Of a stretch of DNA of 64,000 nt, positions 10,618 to 64,000 are shown piece by piece. The position numbers and the translations under genes were made by a program. A model generated the notes under the pieces. It saw nothing but the letters and a program-made list of their open reading frames with translations. It was not told where the DNA came from and searched no databases. The DNA lies in contig NZ_JNNU01000002.1 in assembly GCF_000732195.1 (NCBI RefSeq), positions 62,001 to 126,000 on the forward strand. The letters run 5' to 3'. The DNA comes from Neorhizobium vignae. GTDB taxonomy: Bacteria > Pseudomonadota > Alphaproteobacteria > Rhizobiales > Rhizobiaceae. The first letter of the stretch is position 1, and each line of letters opens with the position of its first letter.

Positions 10618-11658
10618 TCAAACATCGCGTCCGGCTATGGTGACGATGACCGGCGCGTGGTCGGAGGCGATACCCTTCGGTGGCCCATCGCGAAAATGAT
10701 CGTCGAAGACCTCCACCTTGGTCACCGTGCCGCGCCGGCGCGGGTTGTTCGGATTCAGTCCGTTGGAAACGATCCCGTAGTCGAGGATTGAGCCATGGCC
10801 CGAACTGCTATGGGTGATCGGCCGGCCCTGAAGCTGGGTCGGCACGAGGGGCCACGTATCGTAGAGCTTGTAGACATGTTTGAGGAAGGCGAATTCCGGC
10901 GGAACACCGTTGGCCGGGATGCTGCCCCAGGAAAACACCCGCTCGCCCTGGGTCAGAATGCCGATCGTGTGCGAATCCGGCCCCTCGTTGAGGTCGCCGA
11001 GCAGCAGGACCGGCGCATCGTTGTCGCGATCGATGGCACGGCGGAACAGCCGGTAGACGACGCCGGCTTCCGCCGCACGCTTGGCGACCTGATCCACGCC
11101 GGCGGCATTGCGGAGTGAATAATAGGTCTTGATCTTCTCGGCCCAGTCCGTGATCGGATCGACATCGCGCGGATCGACGAATGCGCCCTGTGATTTCAGA
11201 TGGCACACATAGATATCCATCCCGCCGATCCCGGCCAAGTCGATGCGCGCCGCGACCGGCGTGCGGGAAAACCTGAAATCTGGATCGACGACCGTGTCGA
11301 CGTCGATATCGGCGACCCCGATCAGGTCGCCGACCTGCGTGAATGGATGACGCGAGGCGATCGCCACCGTGGCATTCACGTAGATCGCACTGTCCTCCCT
11401 GTCGAAAATCGGCACGCCGGCATTGTAGAAATGTGGATAACCGGCGGCGGCCACAAGGTCCTTCAGCGCCTCGAACGACACCACTTCCTGAAAGCCGACC
11501 ACATCGGCATTCATCTGCGCCAGCATGCCGGTGATCCAGGCCCGTTTGGCCTGCCACTGCTCCGGCGTGTAGGTCGATTTGGGATCCCGCTCATGCCAGA
11601 AAATGCCCGGCTCGGCGAAATGAAAGAGATTGAAGGTCGCAAATCTGAAATCGGCCAT
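10618..11658 (-). CDS. Endonuclease/exonuclease/phosphatase (EEP) family protein
   Basis: Metal-dependent phosphodiesterase-fold protein of 346 residues. Family motifs are in order: FATFNLFHF at the start, VVGFQEVV (catalytic glutamate), IYVCHLKSQG, LLLGDLNEGPDSH (the D-x-N site) and GIASDHAPVIV (terminal D-H). ATG 11658 is preceded by GCGGGAGGG; the frame extends to 11700 without a better site. It has no signal peptide, so it acts in the cytoplasm. Substrate could be nucleic acid, a phospholipid headgroup or a small phosphoester; sequence does not decide. Confidence 0.85.
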   Translation of the reverse strand: MADFRFATFNLFHFAEPGIFWHERDPKSTYTPEQWQAKRAWITGMLAQMNADVVGFQEVVSFEALKDLVAAAGYPHFYNAGVPIFDREDSAIYVNATVAIASRHPFTQVGDLIGVADIDVDTVVDPDFRFSRTPVAARIDLAGIGGMDIYVCHLKSQGAFVDPRDVDPITDWAEKIKTYYSLRNAAGVDQVAKRAAEAGVVYRLFRRAIDRDNDAPVLLLGDLNEGPDSHTIGILTQGERVFSWGSIPANGVPPEFAFLKHVYKLYDTWPLVPTQLQGRPITHSSSGHGSILDYGIVSNGLNPNNPRRRGTVTKVEVFDDHFRDGPPKGIASDHAPVIVTIAGRDV

Positions 11659-11766
11659 GCCTGCCCTCCCGCAAAATGACGAATGTAAAGACTGATACAT
11701 CTACTTAAAATTGTAAACATGACAGGGTGATGATAGTCTCCGGGTTGGATCATCCGGGGGGAAACC

Positions 11767-12975
11767 ATGTCAAAGAATATCGTCATTCTGTTCGACGGCA
11801 CGTCGAATGAAATATCCGCTGACCGCACGAATATCCTCAGACTGTTCGGAACGCTGGAGCGATCCGAAAGGCAGATCGTCTATTACGACCCCGGCGTCGG
11901 AACATTCGGTGCGGCGAACTCCTGGTCGAGATACTACCGCAAGGCCTTCGAAGTCTGGGGGCTGGCCACCGGCTGGGGTTTGGACGAGAACGTCAAGGAA
12001 GCCTATCGTTTCCTCGTCGAAAACTATGATCGCGGCCCCAAGAACGTCGATGGCCGGCATGCGGACCGGGACCGTATCTATATCTTCGGCTTCAGCCGCG
12101 GCGCCTATTCGGCACGTGTGCTTGCAGGCTTCATCCACGCCTTCGGCCTGACAACGAAGTATCACCTCAATCTGCTGGATTACGCCTACAAGACCTACAA
12201 GGGCATTCCCGAGCAGGAACAGCGCAAGGAAGACGCCATCGGGGACGAGGACGCATCCTCGGCATTCGCCAGCATGCGCCTCTATGAAAGAATGCTCCGC
12301 AACGACCGTCCGCCCATCGCGCTCCTCGGCCTTTTCGACACCGTGGCTTCAGTCATCGAATCAGGCAAGTGGCGCCCGCAATTGAAGACCCATCCCTTCA
12401 CCCGCAAAAACCCGAGCGTCGAATGCGTGCGCCACGCGGTGGCGATCGACGAGCGGCGCACCATGTTCCAACCGGAATTGTGGATGCCGGACCAGGATTA
12501 TTGGGGCGGCCCGTTCAAGCCGAAAACCGTTGCCCGACAGGATTTCAAGGAGGTCTGGTTTGCCGGCGTGCACGGCGATATCGGCGGCGGATACCCCGAG
12601 GCGCAGAGCGGACAGATTAAGATTCCGCTCGATTGGATGATCCGCGAAACCGGCCCGACAGGTCTCTTCTATGTGACCCGCACGATCAACAATATCGTTC
12701 TTGGCAAGAACGCCAACAAATATGTGCCCCTGGATCCGAAAGCCGAGCTTCACAACTCCATGACGACGGGCTGGAAAATCCTCGAATACATTCCGCGGCG
12801 CGTTCCCGAAAGCTCGTGGCGCAAGCGGGGGGATCGCAGCGGAATCTATGTGCCGCTCGAAGACCGGCGCTTCATTCCAGACGGAGCAAAGCTTCACGAG
12901 TCGGTCAAAACCCGTTTGGACGCTGGCGCCTACACTCCGCCAAACCTCCCTCAAAACTCCACTTTCGTCCCTTGA
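11767..12975 (+). CDS. DUF2235 alpha/beta-hydrolase protein
   Basis: Protein of 402 residues opening with NIVILFDGTSNE and carrying the nucleophile elbow GFSRGAYSARVLAGF near residue 105, which places a serine in the G-x-S-x-G-like element of DUF2235 (T6SS Tle1 phospholipase relatives). FAGVHGDIGGGYPE near residue 265 is the second conserved block. No signal peptide, VgrG or immunity-like partner is nearby, so a secreted-effector role is not supported here; an intracellular esterase or lipase is equally possible. It converges on the UdgX gene with a 23-base gap. Confidence 0.85.
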   Translation: MSKNIVILFDGTSNEISADRTNILRLFGTLERSERQIVYYDPGVGTFGAANSWSRYYRKAFEVWGLATGWGLDENVKEAYRFLVENYDRGPKNVDGRHADRDRIYIFGFSRGAYSARVLAGFIHAFGLTTKYHLNLLDYAYKTYKGIPEQEQRKEDAIGDEDASSAFASMRLYERMLRNDRPPIALLGLFDTVASVIESGKWRPQLKTHPFTRKNPSVECVRHAVAIDERRTMFQPELWMPDQDYWGGPFKPKTVARQDFKEVWFAGVHGDIGGGYPEAQSGQIKIPLDWMIRETGPTGLFYVTRTINNIVLGKNANKYVPLDPKAELHNSMTTGWKILEYIPRRVPESSWRKRGDRSGIYVPLEDRRFIPDGAKLHESVKTRLDAGAYTPPNLPQNSTFVP

Positions 12976-12998: not shown

Positions 12999-14468
12999 TC
13001 ACGCCGCCAAGCGCTTGATCCGGCTCATGTCCTGTCTGAACCGGTCAAGTTCCTCCGCCTTCCGGCCCTCGTCGGGAATGCGCAGCAGATAGGACGGATG
13101 CACCGTCACGAAGAGCGTCCGCCCGTCCTCCATGGCGATCGGCTCGCCCCTGACATCCTCCAGCTTCTGGCGCATGTCGGTCAGCGCAAAGAGCGCGGTC
13201 GCGCCCATCGCCACCACCAGTTTCGGCTTCACCAGTTCCAGTTCCTGGGTCAGCCACCAGCGGCATTGCCTGACCTCGCCCATGTTGGGTTTCTGGTGGA
13301 TGCGCCGCTTGCCGCGCGGCTCATATTTGAAGTGCTTCACCGCATTGGTGATATAGAGCGACCGCCGGTCGATGCCGACCTCGCCGATCACGTCGTTGAA
13401 CAGTTTTCCCGCCGGCCCGACAAACGGTTTTCCCGCCAGATCCTCCTGGTCGCCGGGCTGCTCGCCGACGAACATCACCCGAGCGTCCGGCGGCCCGTCG
13501 CCGAACACCGTCTGGGTCGCCAGGCAATGGATGTCGCAGCGCGTGCAATGCCGCGCTTCCTGCTTCAGCGCCGCAAGCGTGCCGGCAGCAGCCACCGGCT
13601 CCGCCGGCGCCCTGGCGGCCGCCTCCTGGATGCGGTGATGGAAGGGCAAGGGTTCGCTCGCCGCCTTGCGCGCCATGTCGATGACCTGAGCCTCGGCATT
13701 GGCGATCAGCCCCGGAATAAGCTCCGCTTCCGGCAGGTTCTTCCAGTATTTCTTCGGCATCTCGGTAGTCATCATCTTCACCTTCAGTCGCGCCGGGTTG
13801 AAGATCGAGGCGTAATAGGTGCGCCACAGCTCGTCCGTCTCGTCGCGCAGGTCGGGTTTCTCCGCCGGCTCGTCCGTCGTGCGCAGCGTCTCGCCGTCCC
13901 AGGAGGCCGAGCCCTTCGGCGTCGCGATCAGCCAGTCCATGTCGGTAAACCGCCGCTGGAAGAACGGCGCCACCCGGGCGATGATGAAATGGTCCGGCTC
14001 GAACCAGGAGATGAAGCGCCGCCGCCCGGCCGTGCCTTCCTTGAGCGGCAGTTCCTTGAAGCGCACGAAGGCGGTCATCTTGTGATAGTCGCGGCCGACC
14101 GATTTCGCCATGCGGCTCGCCGCAACCACGTCCGGATCGGTCGCCATCTGCAGCAGATGTGCGCCATGCCCCGTCCGCCCATGCATCATCCGGAACAGCA
14201 TGCGGTAGAGCAGCGCGAACCGGGTCGGGTCGGAATGGCAGAGCACCGCCTGCGCCAGCCGCATGAAGGCGGGCTGCACCCTCATCGGCTCGCAGTCCGG
14301 TTGCGGCGGCGGCAGATGGTTCTCGTCGAAACCGAACAGCCCGTCGGCATCGTCCATCGTGCGCCATACGACATAGTCTGGCACGATCCCGGCCCTCAGG
14401 AAGGCGCGGGCGGCATCGCGCCATTCGGTGAGATCGCCCCTGCCCCGCAGCGAAAACCGGTACATCAT
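12999..14468 (-). CDS. DUF4130 domain fused to UdgX uracil-DNA-binding domain
   Basis: Fusion of 489 residues. Residues 1-255 match the SAM-associated DUF4130 domain; residues about 300-489 are a UDG superfamily domain with iron-sulfur cysteines (CTRC and later RQCRWW), GEQPGDQEDLAGKPF, and HPSYLLR. Residues 387-391 are KRRIH, the loop that defines UdgX; in the characterised Mycobacterium protein this histidine forms a covalent bond with the uracil-derived site. The gene starts at ATG 14468 inside the stop of the radical SAM gene (ATGA overlap), so the two are translationally coupled. Likely role: capture or repair of uracil-containing DNA. Confidence 0.92.
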   Translation of the reverse strand: MMYRFSLRGRGDLTEWRDAARAFLRAGIVPDYVVWRTMDDADGLFGFDENHLPPPQPDCEPMRVQPAFMRLAQAVLCHSDPTRFALLYRMLFRMMHGRTGHGAHLLQMATDPDVVAASRMAKSVGRDYHKMTAFVRFKELPLKEGTAGRRRFISWFEPDHFIIARVAPFFQRRFTDMDWLIATPKGSASWDGETLRTTDEPAEKPDLRDETDELWRTYYASIFNPARLKVKMMTTEMPKKYWKNLPEAELIPGLIANAEAQVIDMARKAASEPLPFHHRIQEAAARAPAEPVAAAGTLAALKQEARHCTRCDIHCLATQTVFGDGPPDARVMFVGEQPGDQEDLAGKPFVGPAGKLFNDVIGEVGIDRRSLYITNAVKHFKYEPRGKRRIHQKPNMGEVRQCRWWLTQELELVKPKLVVAMGATALFALTDMRQKLEDVRGEPIAMEDGRTLFVTVHPSYLLRIPDEGRKAEELDRFRQDMSRIKRLAA

Positions 14469-15697
14469 AACAACGACAACTGCTCTGGCTTCGGCTCGAA
14501 CATTGCCCTGAGATCCGTCCGGTCGACCAGTCGATGCGGCGTCCAGCCCTCAGCCGTGATGAACGGCTGCACCTTCCGGAGCGACACGCCGAGCCGCTTC
14601 AGATCGTCGAGCCGCAACCGGCCGAACCGCCGCGACGAGAGAATGCCTTTCACCGTCTTGGTGCCGAAACCCGGCACCCGCAGCAGCATCTCCTTCTCCG
14701 CCCGGTTGACGTCCACCGGGAACCGTTCGCGATGGCCGAGCGCCCAGGCAAGCTTCGGGTCGAGATCGAGATCGAGCATGCCGCCCGCCTGCGTCGCCGT
14801 GATTTCGCCGATCTCGAAACCGTAGAACCGGTAGAGCCAGTCCGCCTGGTAGAGCCGGTGCTCGCGCATCAGCGGCGGCTTGATCAGCGGTAGGTTCTTC
14901 GACGAATCCGGGATCGGGCTGAAAGCCGAATAATAGACCCGCTTCAGCCCGTAGCTGCCGTAAAGCCTAGCGCTCGTGCCGAGAATGGTCGCGTCGCTGG
15001 CGCCGTCGGCGCCGACGATCATCTGCGTGCTCTGCCCGGCCGGCGCGAACGTCTTCTTCCGTTTCGTCTGCAGCGTCGGATCGGCCATTTCCTCGATCTT
15101 CAGCCTGAGCTTGCCCATCGAGCGGCGGATGTTGTCCGGCCGCTTTTCCGGCGCGAACCGGCTGATGCCGCTGTCGGTCGGCAGCTCGATATTGATCGAC
15201 AGCCGGTCGGCATAAAGACCAGCCTCCTCGATCAGATGCGCGGAGGCCTCCGGAATGCTCTTCAGGTGGATATAGCCGCGGAAATTATGCGTCGTCCTGA
15301 GTTCCCTGGCGATCCGCACCATCTCCTCCATCGTGTGGTCGGAGGAGCGGATGATGCCGGAGGAGAGGAACAGGCCTTCGATATAGTTGCGGCGGTAGAA
15401 TTCCAGCGTCAGCCAGATCACCTCCTCCGGCGAAAAACGCGCCCGCTCCACATTGCTGGACGAACGGTTGATGCAATAGGCGCAGTCGTAGATGCAGAAA
15501 TTGGTGAGCAGGATCTTCAGGAGCGATATGCATCGCCCGTCCGGCGCATAGGCATGGCAGATGCCAGAACCCTCCGTCGAGCCAAGCCCGCCTGTCGCCG
15601 ACGAGTCCCGCTTCACGGTCCCGCTGGAGGCACAGGAAGCATCGTATTTGGCGGCATCCGAAAGGATCGCCAGGCGTTCTTTCAGCGATTTCTTCAT
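14465..15697 (-). CDS. UDG-linked radical SAM protein (putative DNA modification/repair)
   Basis: Radical SAM enzyme of 410 residues. The cluster-binding motif CIYDCAYC (C-x3-C-x2-C) lies in LLKILLTNFCIYDCAYCINR near residue 75; a helix-hairpin-helix-like stretch near the end, VPGFGTKTVKGILSSR, suggests DNA contact. It belongs to the family always found with UdgX-type genes (rSAM_link_UDG). I prefer ATG 15697: a GTG at 15709 is in frame but lies within the LexA box at 15704-15718. First gene of a two-gene operon with DUF4130-UdgX. The chemical reaction is unknown for the family. Confidence 0.9.
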   Translation of the reverse strand: MKKSLKERLAILSDAAKYDASCASSGTVKRDSSATGGLGSTEGSGICHAYAPDGRCISLLKILLTNFCIYDCAYCINRSSSNVERARFSPEEVIWLTLEFYRRNYIEGLFLSSGIIRSSDHTMEEMVRIARELRTTHNFRGYIHLKSIPEASAHLIEEAGLYADRLSINIELPTDSGISRFAPEKRPDNIRRSMGKLRLKIEEMADPTLQTKRKKTFAPAGQSTQMIVGADGASDATILGTSARLYGSYGLKRVYYSAFSPIPDSSKNLPLIKPPLMREHRLYQADWLYRFYGFEIGEITATQAGGMLDLDLDPKLAWALGHRERFPVDVNRAEKEMLLRVPGFGTKTVKGILSSRRFGRLRLDDLKRLGVSLRKVQPFITAEGWTPHRLVDRTDLRAMFEPKPEQLSLL

Positions 15698-15703
15698 TAG
15701 AAT

Positions 15704-15718
15704 GTTCACTAAATGTTC
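15704..15718 (-). promoter_or_regulatory. LexA (SOS) box of the alphaproteobacterial type
   Basis: Exact direct repeat GTTC-N7-GTTC (GTTC ACTAAAT GTTC on the plus strand), the consensus for alphaproteobacterial LexA. It lies seven bases upstream of ATG 15697 of the radical SAM gene, where a repressor would block transcription or early elongation. Binding itself is inferred. Confidence 0.72.
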
Positions 15719-15829
15719 TTTTTCGACCCGTCAAGTCATTGACAAACGGTGCCGCTTGCAATCTCATGGTGAAGGAGGGGCTCACCGACAAGGTTTCGAA
15801 ATTCCTAGCGCTCGCTGTCGAAATTCTGT

Positions 15830-15895
15830 TATAGTGACCTACATTCTGATTTTACGATGGTTCCGAAGTTTCGCTCCGGAACCTGTTTCTTTTTG
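15830..15895 (+). promoter_or_regulatory. greA leader with promoter -10 and terminator-like hairpin
   Basis: A -10-like TATAGT at 15830-15835 would start transcription near 15842. At 15859-15883 arms GGTTCCG and CGGAACC form a hairpin, followed by a U-rich tail (TGTTTCTTTTTG, 15884-15895), the shape of an intrinsic terminator, all inside the untranslated leader of greA. In E. coli the greA leader also ends some transcripts early, giving the GraL RNAs; the same logic is inferred here. No good -35 box was found. Confidence 0.5.
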
Positions 15896-15936
15896 TGTCC
15901 GCGGTATCCGCGGGCATGCGCCTGAAGGACAAGGAA

Positions 15937-63107: not shown

Positions 63108-64000
63108 TCAGGCGCGGGCTTCGGCGGATTTGCCGTTCTTTTTCTCAAGAACCGCTTCCGTGATGGAGTTCGGAATGCGCCTCGGCGTTTCGAAGAGACC
63201 GAGCAGCGGCATGATCACCAGGAAGAAGCCGAAGTAGTACAGCGTGCCGATCTGCGACAGCGCGGTGAAGATGCCTTCCGCAGGCTGGGAACCGAGCCAG
63301 CCGAGCATGATCGCATTGGCGACGAACAGCCAGAAGAACAGCTTGTACCAGGGACGGTAGACGGCGGAGCGGACCTTCGACGTGTCGAGCCAGGGCAGGA
63401 AGAACAGGATGATGATCGAACCGAACATCACCAGAACGCCGCCAAGCTTGGAGTCGATGAAGAGAACGTTGAACGTAATTGCGCGCAGCATGGCGTAGAA
63501 CGGCAGGTAGTACCATTCGGGAACGATGTGAGCGGGGGTCTTCAGGGCGTCGGCCGGGATGTAGTTGTCCGGGTGGCCGAGGTAGTTCGGCATGTAGAAG
63601 ATGAACCAGGCATACACGATCAGGAAGACGGAGACGCCGAGCGCATCCTTCATCGTCGCATAGGGCGTGAAGGCGACGGTGTCGGTCTTGGTCTTGACCT
63701 CGACGCCGGTCGGGTTGGTCTGGCCGGTGACGTGCAGGGCCCAGATGTGCAGGATGACGACGCCGGCGATCATGAAGGGCAGCAGGTAGTGCAGCGAGAA
63801 GAAGCGGTTCAGCGTCGGCTGATCGACGGCAAAGCCGCCGAGAAGGAACTGCTGGATCCATTCGCCGACCAGCGGGAAGGCCGAGAAGAAGCCGGTGATG
63901 ACGGTCGCGCCCCAGAAGGACATCTGACCCCAGGGCAGAACGTAGCCCATGAAGCCGGTCGCCATCATCAGCAGGTAGATCACCACGCCGAGGATCCAGA
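63108..64000 (-). CDS. petB: Cytochrome b of the bc1 complex (partial, 5' end cut by window)
   Basis: Transmembrane subunit with the two b hemes, which forms the quinol-oxidising and quinone-reducing sites. The frame is open to base 64000, so the N-terminus lies beyond the window; about 297 codons are seen. [20 protein letters not shown] and ITGFF fix the identity, and the PEWY motif of the quinol-oxidation site is in [18 protein letters not shown]. The C-terminal part carries three further helices. Followed by petC. Confidence 0.95.

Follow-up and report, generated by a model that had tools for sequence, protein, structure and literature searches.

What does a radical S-adenosylmethionine (SAM) enzyme do when its gene lies behind a LexA box and next to a gene for a uracil-DNA glycosylase (UDG) family protein? 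The question is raised by an operon on the minus strand of a 64,000-nucleotide (nt) stretch of the Neorhizobium vignae contig NZ_JNNU01000002.1, hereafter the window, in which a radical SAM gene is followed by a gene that fuses DUF4130 to UdgX. We refer to this set of genes, with or without UdgX, as the cassette. An initial annotation of the window had proposed SOS control of the cassette and, further, a joint action of the radical SAM enzyme and UdgX on damaged or uracil-containing DNA. The first proposal is strongly supported by the comparisons given here; the second is not supported as a general function, in that cassettes without UdgX mostly keep the box. The reading that we favor, with a probability of about 0.6, is that an SOS-induced, clamp-tethered radical SAM enzyme would act with DUF4130 on damaged DNA, with UdgX as an optional addition. 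To our knowledge, no function has been shown for either the cassette radical SAM enzyme or DUF4130.

The box GTTCACTAAATGTTC is an exact GTTC-N7-GTTC on the plus strand at 15704–15718, so the perfect alphaproteobacterial LexA box first reported here is borne out. On the gene strand it reads GAACATTTAGTGAAC and is followed by 6 nt, rather than the 7 first given, and then by the ATG at 15697. The radical SAM protein scores 578.7 bits against TIGR03916 (cut-off 343.5), with PF04055 matching residues 63–198, while the fusion protein scores 216.1 bits against TIGR03915/DUF4130 (cut-off 112.25) and 342.2 bits against TIGR03914/UdgX (cut-off 189.95). The two genes overlap by ATGA. The closest named relatives are found in Neorhizobium and other Rhizobiaceae. 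Boxes of the same kind, GAACACATATGGAAC and GAACATTTTAAGAAC, are present at the lexA and recA genes of the same genome.

Taken alone, the motif is no more frequent in the window than chance would give—there are 2 matches against 2.14 expected, the other one (63423–63437) lying inside a cytochrome-b-like reading frame. Genome-wide counts are 190 for the motif and 133 for its reversed control. A chance box is ruled out as an explanation by conservation across loci and by control motifs. We scanned for exact matches on either strand, from 150 nt upstream of the start to 4 nt past it, in 164 alphaproteobacterial loci; these comprise the best 80 of 572 relatives, the best 30 of 54 over-cut-off family matches, and class and phylum matches, with all 84 over-cut-off places, alphaproteobacterial and other, taken for the phylum-level set (170 loci with a start, the window locus included, left 164 after removal of identical gene starts). 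Conservation at orthologous loci had been named in advance as the check on SOS control, and it holds: the box is exact in 161 of the 164 loci and has one mismatch in the remaining three. In the same loci, shuffles gave 0.73 matches on average, and motifs with a spacer of 6, with a spacer of 8, or in reverse matched once each. Of the nearest relatives (the best 80 of 572), 77 have an exact box and 3 a box with one mismatch. Columns 20–30 bases before the box agree in 27–37% of loci and those of the box centre in 59–90%, the GAAC half-sites being fixed by construction in this comparison; because the upstream flank agrees far less than the box centre, shared descent alone fails to explain the box.

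In other proteobacteria the operator changes with the clade. Among 29 such loci, CTGT-N8-ACAG is exact in 19 and has one mismatch in 5; the exact alphaproteobacterial box occurs in 0/29 of them, and exact CTGT-N8-ACAG in 0/164 of the alphaproteobacterial loci. Judged by this conservation and by the clade-matched operators, control of the cassette by SOS/LexA is strongly supported, and within the alphaproteobacterial loci tested the LexA link is nearly invariant.

The position of the box gives an indication of how repression may work. In the 147 loci with a coding-orientation box, TTGAC starts 16–18 bases before the box in 79, compared with 12 at all other offsets, and at most 7 nt separate the box from the start in 122. 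Because TTGAC sits 16–18 bases before the box, the box would overlie the -10 element; together with the short gap, this would place the transcript start at or beside the ATG, and the promoter geometry thus suggests a leaderless or nearly leaderless mRNA. A GTG start at 15709, within the box, was considered and rejected because the distance between box and start differs among relatives in single-nucleotide increments (most distances being 2 to 7 nt), leaving no common frame through the box.

Which of its neighbors, then, goes with the radical SAM gene? In 190 alphaproteobacterial genomes, the radical SAM family is over cut-off in 10 and DUF4130 in 10, and the two lie together in 9/9 genomes in which both genes are complete (under 110 nt apart in 8, and 636 nt apart in G132). 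The tenth radical SAM gene (G165) is truncated where its contig ends; the tenth DUF4130 gene (locus L187, genome G302) adjoins a radical SAM remnant that matches only about residues 280–407, and the cassette there seems to be in decay. In the larger sets, from which 6 short or partial loci (5 alphaproteobacterial, 1 other) were left out, DUF4130 is found no more than 700 nt from the radical SAM gene in 155/159 alphaproteobacterial and 28/28 other loci; the remaining four alphaproteobacterial genomes have it at a distance of about 2.3–3.1 kb, except for G022, where the distance is about 500 kb. By gene content, the constant partner of the radical SAM gene is DUF4130.

UdgX is another matter. 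It lies downstream, fused to DUF4130, in 141/159 alphaproteobacterial loci, and downstream in 11/28 others; the 18 alphaproteobacterial loci without a downstream UdgX comprise 4 with a displaced DUF4130-UdgX gene and 14 with no UdgX in the cassette. These 14 have an exact box in 12 cases and one mismatch in 2 (L103, L104), and the 17 other loci without UdgX have an exact box in 11, one mismatch in 4 (L223, L239–L241), and none in 2 (L145, L190). On a FastTree tree of 186 radical SAM proteins the UdgX label changes 12 times, with 7 of the changes forced by well-supported branches. UdgX is over cut-off at 17 places in the 190 genomes, 6 in cassettes and 11 outside them; a LexA box was found at 1 of these 11 (L184) in a scan of the 500 nt before the domain, which could miss a box at L181 and L182, where the open reading frames (ORFs) start much earlier. 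Since most cassettes without UdgX keep the box and UdgX outside cassettes mostly has none, SOS control tracks the radical SAM–DUF4130 pair. The UdgX at L184 has a LexA box of its own, GAACGTATAGTGAAC, which starts 77 nt before the domain.

These counts bear on two explanations that give UdgX a central part. In the first, both enzymes belong to a single pathway of uracil repair, with a radical SAM step on uracil-containing DNA—a reading suggested by the shared operon, by the fused UdgX downstream in most alphaproteobacterial loci, and by the R-loop histidine kept in every cassette UdgX (159/159). We consider it unlikely, given the exact boxes of cassettes that lack UdgX, the repeated label changes on the tree, and the 11 of 17 UdgX places outside cassettes. 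Simple uracil base excision repair is likewise disfavored as an account of the operon because UdgX is its dispensable part. The second explanation, that the radical SAM enzyme releases or resolves a covalent UdgX–DNA adduct, draws on the operon linkage and on the covalent bond that UdgX forms with apurinic/apyrimidinic (AP) DNA according to the parts of the literature consulted; it is very improbable in view of the 17 of 28 non-alphaproteobacterial cassettes with no downstream UdgX and the 11 UdgX places outside cassettes.

Where UdgX is present, its chemistry may be intact. The window protein carries the motifs GEQPGD, KRRIH, and HPSYLLR (HPS motif B)—the KRRIH loop having been pointed out in the initial annotation—and matches the M. 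smegmatis UdgX structure 6ail at E=1.2e-45. It shares the GEQPG, KRRIH, and HPS motifs with the mycobacterial protein, and differs from it in being fused to DUF4130 and lying behind a LexA box; M. smegmatis UdgX is a stand-alone protein and is not known to be linked to a radical SAM gene. Among 159 cassette UdgX sequences (phmmer score >160, not deduplicated, with the same genomes repeated), GEQPGD is found in 158 and the KRRIH histidine in all 159; because this histidine is always kept, covalent capture of AP-DNA is plausible wherever UdgX exists. Seven of these UdgX proteins (L158, L211, L213, L214, L220, L224, L234) have lost at least one of the two leading conserved cysteines, presumed to be iron–sulfur (Fe-S) ligands, and yet keep the histidine, which suggests that the capture chemistry can outlast loss of the Fe-S cluster.

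The radical SAM protein itself offers an indication of where it may work. The window protein ends in QLSLL, a QLxLF-type motif at the C-terminus, and the pattern Q[LMAIVFP]x[LMI][FLWIMV] occurs within the last 12 residues in 175/191 non-identical proteins with a true stop; the stricter Q[LM][SD]L[FL] is found in 100 of these tails. The other 16 hold close penta- or hexapeptide variants within the same stretch (QQSLF, QGSLF, QGALF, QLSLAF, QMSLAL, QLSLAL, QMALAL, or QLGFGF); a hexapeptide form of the beta-clamp-binding motif is known. Among controls, 31/9550 internal windows and 653/9550 shuffled tails match the pattern. It is present in 77/77 radical SAM ORFs (those of 80 genes that passed the ORF filter) versus 1/511 mechanically called neighboring ORFs, and in 1/54 ORFs of the window, which is the radical SAM ORF. 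Gln406 is kept in 197/197 proteins, and some distant copies carry a form of the motif, QLALF, QLSLGF, QLRFDF, and QLELF, that is terminal or nearly so.

QLxLF is the beta-clamp-binding consensus, and in transposases, according to the portion of the published work consulted, it is almost always C-terminal; the cassette enzyme resembles such clamp clients in both the motif and its position. By this likeness, the radical SAM tail is predicted to bind the sliding clamp. Text searches for literature joining a radical SAM protein to a clamp-binding motif found none among the papers listed, most subscription journals lying outside the search, and the clamp link looks new. We know of no radical SAM enzyme among the known clients with a C-terminal QLxLF.

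Ahead of the tail, the protein combines two further features. Six cysteines (22, 47, 56, 68, 72, and 75) and H48 are invariant in 197/197 proteins; C68, C72, and C75 form the radical SAM motif, and C22, C47, and C56 may hold a second Fe-S cluster. Extra cysteines ahead of the radical SAM motif are a layout of MiaB and LipA and are not known from spore photoproduct lyase (SPL). Helix-hairpin-helix (HhH) models match 53/53 members at E<=0.1, with HHH_3 reaching 19 bits in the window protein, under the Pfam cut-off of 27. A search of solved structures with the radical SAM profile gave no homologue at E<=0.01; at E<=10 there are weak HhH (ComEA, RuvA) and radical SAM matches.

This architecture also bears on a third explanation, in which the enzyme reverses pyrimidine photodimers in the manner of SPL while UdgX clears the uracil left after repair of deaminated dimers. 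We take COG4277 to be the radical SAM family of the cassette. The radical SAM fold and SOS control would both fit photodimer reversal—SplB is a radical SAM protein that is SOS-regulated in several species, according to the consulted text of PMC8565304—and a 2013 analysis, as far as its consulted text goes, ties DUF4130 to UDG and to a radical SAM protein that it labels ‘SplB-like’. In the Bacteroidetes regulon of PMC8565304, however, SplB (COG1533) and COG4277 are separate entries in the text consulted. The cassette enzyme is unlike SplB in its three extra invariant cysteines, its HhH region, its clamp-type tail, and its lack of a match to any SPL model. Only TIGR03916 matched it at E<=0.001 in the NCBIfam library, which contains SPL models. 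On balance, photodimer reversal has a low chance of being correct.

DUF4130 gives fewer leads. A structure model of residues 1–289 has a mean pLDDT (predicted local distance difference test score) of 87.7, and comparison with solved structures returned only three matches, with E between 0.076 and 0.51. Against the DHHA1 domains of RecJ and AlaRS, hhalign gave probabilities of 0.1–0.2%, versus 0.2–0.4% for UdgX and radical SAM controls, with small, shallow profiles (16 RecJ rows and 3 AlaRS rows), and so lent no support to a DHH/DHHA1 fold; the DHH/DHHA1 fold comparison barely covered residues 208–289.

We can now set out how the cassette might work under the reading that we favor, an SOS-induced radical SAM enzyme tethered to the clamp and paired with DUF4130. 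LexA would cover the -10 element and repress the promoter, with the transcript beginning on the radical SAM start codon or only a few bases from it; DNA damage would lead to LexA cleavage and expression of the operon. The C-terminal clamp-binding motif and the HhH element would then bring the radical SAM protein to DNA, where, with its probable C22/C47/C56 Fe-S cluster, it may direct an adenosyl radical at damaged or blocked nucleotides within replication gaps. As the constant partner, DUF4130 would probably serve in DNA presentation or product handling. UdgX, where added, would excise uracil and then hold the AP site covalently; deaminated-cytosine lesions would leave uracil after repair, an idea that would explain why UdgX has been recruited repeatedly. 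The comparisons above show the clade-matched LexA boxes, the pairing of the radical SAM gene with DUF4130, the dispensability of UdgX in the cassette, and the conservation of the tail motif and the cysteines; the leaderless start, clamp binding, the second cluster, a DNA-lesion substrate, and the order of action are the parts of this scheme that we infer. If the tail does bind the clamp, the enzyme would be placed at forks or gaps, which would narrow its substrate to DNA lesions. A broader version, in which the cassette represents a widespread class of SOS-induced, DnaN-tethered, DUF4130-paired radical SAM enzymes with a second Fe-S cluster that perform lesion chemistry in post-replicative gaps, UdgX being repeatedly gained and lost as a uracil-capture module, is more tentative, and we put it at somewhat short of even odds.

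Several observations weigh against this reading. Five of the 29 non-alphaproteobacterial loci (L145, L190, L195, L196, L200) have no recognizable box of either type; seven distant loci scanned for six box types have an exact one only in L249 and L254, and none in L145, L248, L250, L251, and L252. A strict promoter scan of 15600–15900 returned no promoter, the geometry at the window locus having been read by eye. The predicted clamp binding rests on a short motif, and four distant copies (QLSLF, QLSLF, QLSFF, QLSMF) have 4 to 34 residues after it. The three extra cysteines could bind zinc in place of a cluster, and RNA, nucleotide, or protein substrates may also be compatible with the data.

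The distant loci offer some observations of their own. L249, on a gut contig, has two GAAC-N4-GTTC sites about 30 nt apart directly 5' of the radical SAM ORF; GAAC-N4-GTTC is the Firmicutes type of LexA operator, and the pair would add a third kind of operator to those of this operon. The exact box of L254 is GAAC-N7-GAAC. L195, L196, and L200, all from one genus, share an inverted repeat, TCTCAT-CCA-ATGAGA, directly before the start, possibly a different operator. On another gut contig (L252:303–932), a gene for what looks by eye like a LexA-like repressor with helix-turn-helix and S24 parts immediately precedes the radical SAM gene in the same orientation, and is perhaps a dedicated regulator.

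A fourth explanation, in which the cassette serves not repair but DNA modification, either for marking or for defence, takes its cue from the NCBI name ‘DNA modification/repair’ and from copies on plasmids (158/72,556 records). The clade-matched LexA boxes count against it, as does a PADLOC search with no match at E<=0.01, and we regard it as highly unlikely. A phage origin was also considered and rejected: 10/50,697 phage records match, and of the six examined five are without annotation; the sixth (MD-2021a), in which glyS and glyQ adjoin the cassette, looks bacterial. A search of viral contigs gave two loci. The Acinetobacter copy among the distant loci without an exact box, L250 (CAKLQH020000003.1), is filed as an Acinetobacter phage; besides the cassette it holds glyS and glyQ, and it resembles bacterial chromosomal DNA.

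SOS control of the operon has been published before, in several phyla. LexA control of a COG1573–COG4277 operon is described in Bacteroidetes, with Verrucomicrobia and Alphaproteobacteria cited in the same paper (PMC8565304, text consulted); that system resembles the one described here in placing a UDG-family gene and COG4277 in one LexA-controlled operon. The paper reads the operon as uracil base excision repair, and the clamp motif, the cysteine triad, and the optional nature of UdgX do not appear in its consulted text. LexA control has also been predicted for CAC3343–CAC3344 of C. acetobutylicum; the partner gene is not identified in the consulted part of that source, and its assignment to DUF4130 is inferred here. 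In the consulted part of a desiccation study, an Acinetobacter Tol 5 gene with the same name as the cassette radical SAM gene is up at 8% humidity. Caulobacter CC2333 is tabulated as UDG in the consulted part of its source; the cassette is not named in the consulted passages of a 2025 Caulobacter SOS paper. A Streptomyces LexA paper has a ‘Radical SAM protein’, vnz_31145, in a list.

Table 1. Positions of the cassette, its predicted promoter, and its motifs in the window.
Feature	Position	Strand	Basis or remark
Predicted -35 hexamer TTGACG	15729..15734	-	Starts 16 nt before the box
LexA box GAACATTTAGTGAAC (GTTC-N7-GTTC on the plus strand)	15704..15718	-	Overlaps the predicted -10 region; 6 nt 5' of the ATG
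Predicted -10 TAGTGA (15711–15706) and leaderless or near-leaderless transcript start	15698..15711	-	Geometry by eye only
Radical SAM gene, TIGR03916 rSAM_link_UDG, 410 aa	14465..15697	-	Profile match
Segment with extra invariant C22, C47, C56 (and H48), which may ligate a second Fe-S cluster	15530..15634	-	197/197 proteins
Radical SAM motif CX3CX2C, C68-C72-C75	15473..15496	-	197/197 proteins
Helix-hairpin-helix region, residues 328–357	14627..14716	-	HHH_3 matches
C-terminal QLSLL, predicted beta-sliding-clamp-binding motif	14468..14482	-	Motif conservation
Gene fusing DUF4130 to UdgX (489 aa), overlapping the radical SAM gene by ATGA	12999..14468	-	Profile matches
TIGR03915/DUF4130 domain, constant partner	13725..14441	-	Profile match
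UdgX domain, TIGR03914	13020..13721	-	Profile match
UdgX motif A GEQPGD	13449..13466	-	Alignment of cassette UdgX
UdgX R-loop KRRIH with crosslinking histidine	13296..13310	-	Aligns with M. smegmatis UdgX 6ail

Two further genes of the window deserve a brief mention. On the plus strand, a gene at 11767–12975 matches the catalytic domain of Tle1-like phospholipases of the type VI secretion system (PF09994); adjoining it on the minus strand, at 10618–11700, is a gene of the endonuclease/exonuclease/phosphatase family.

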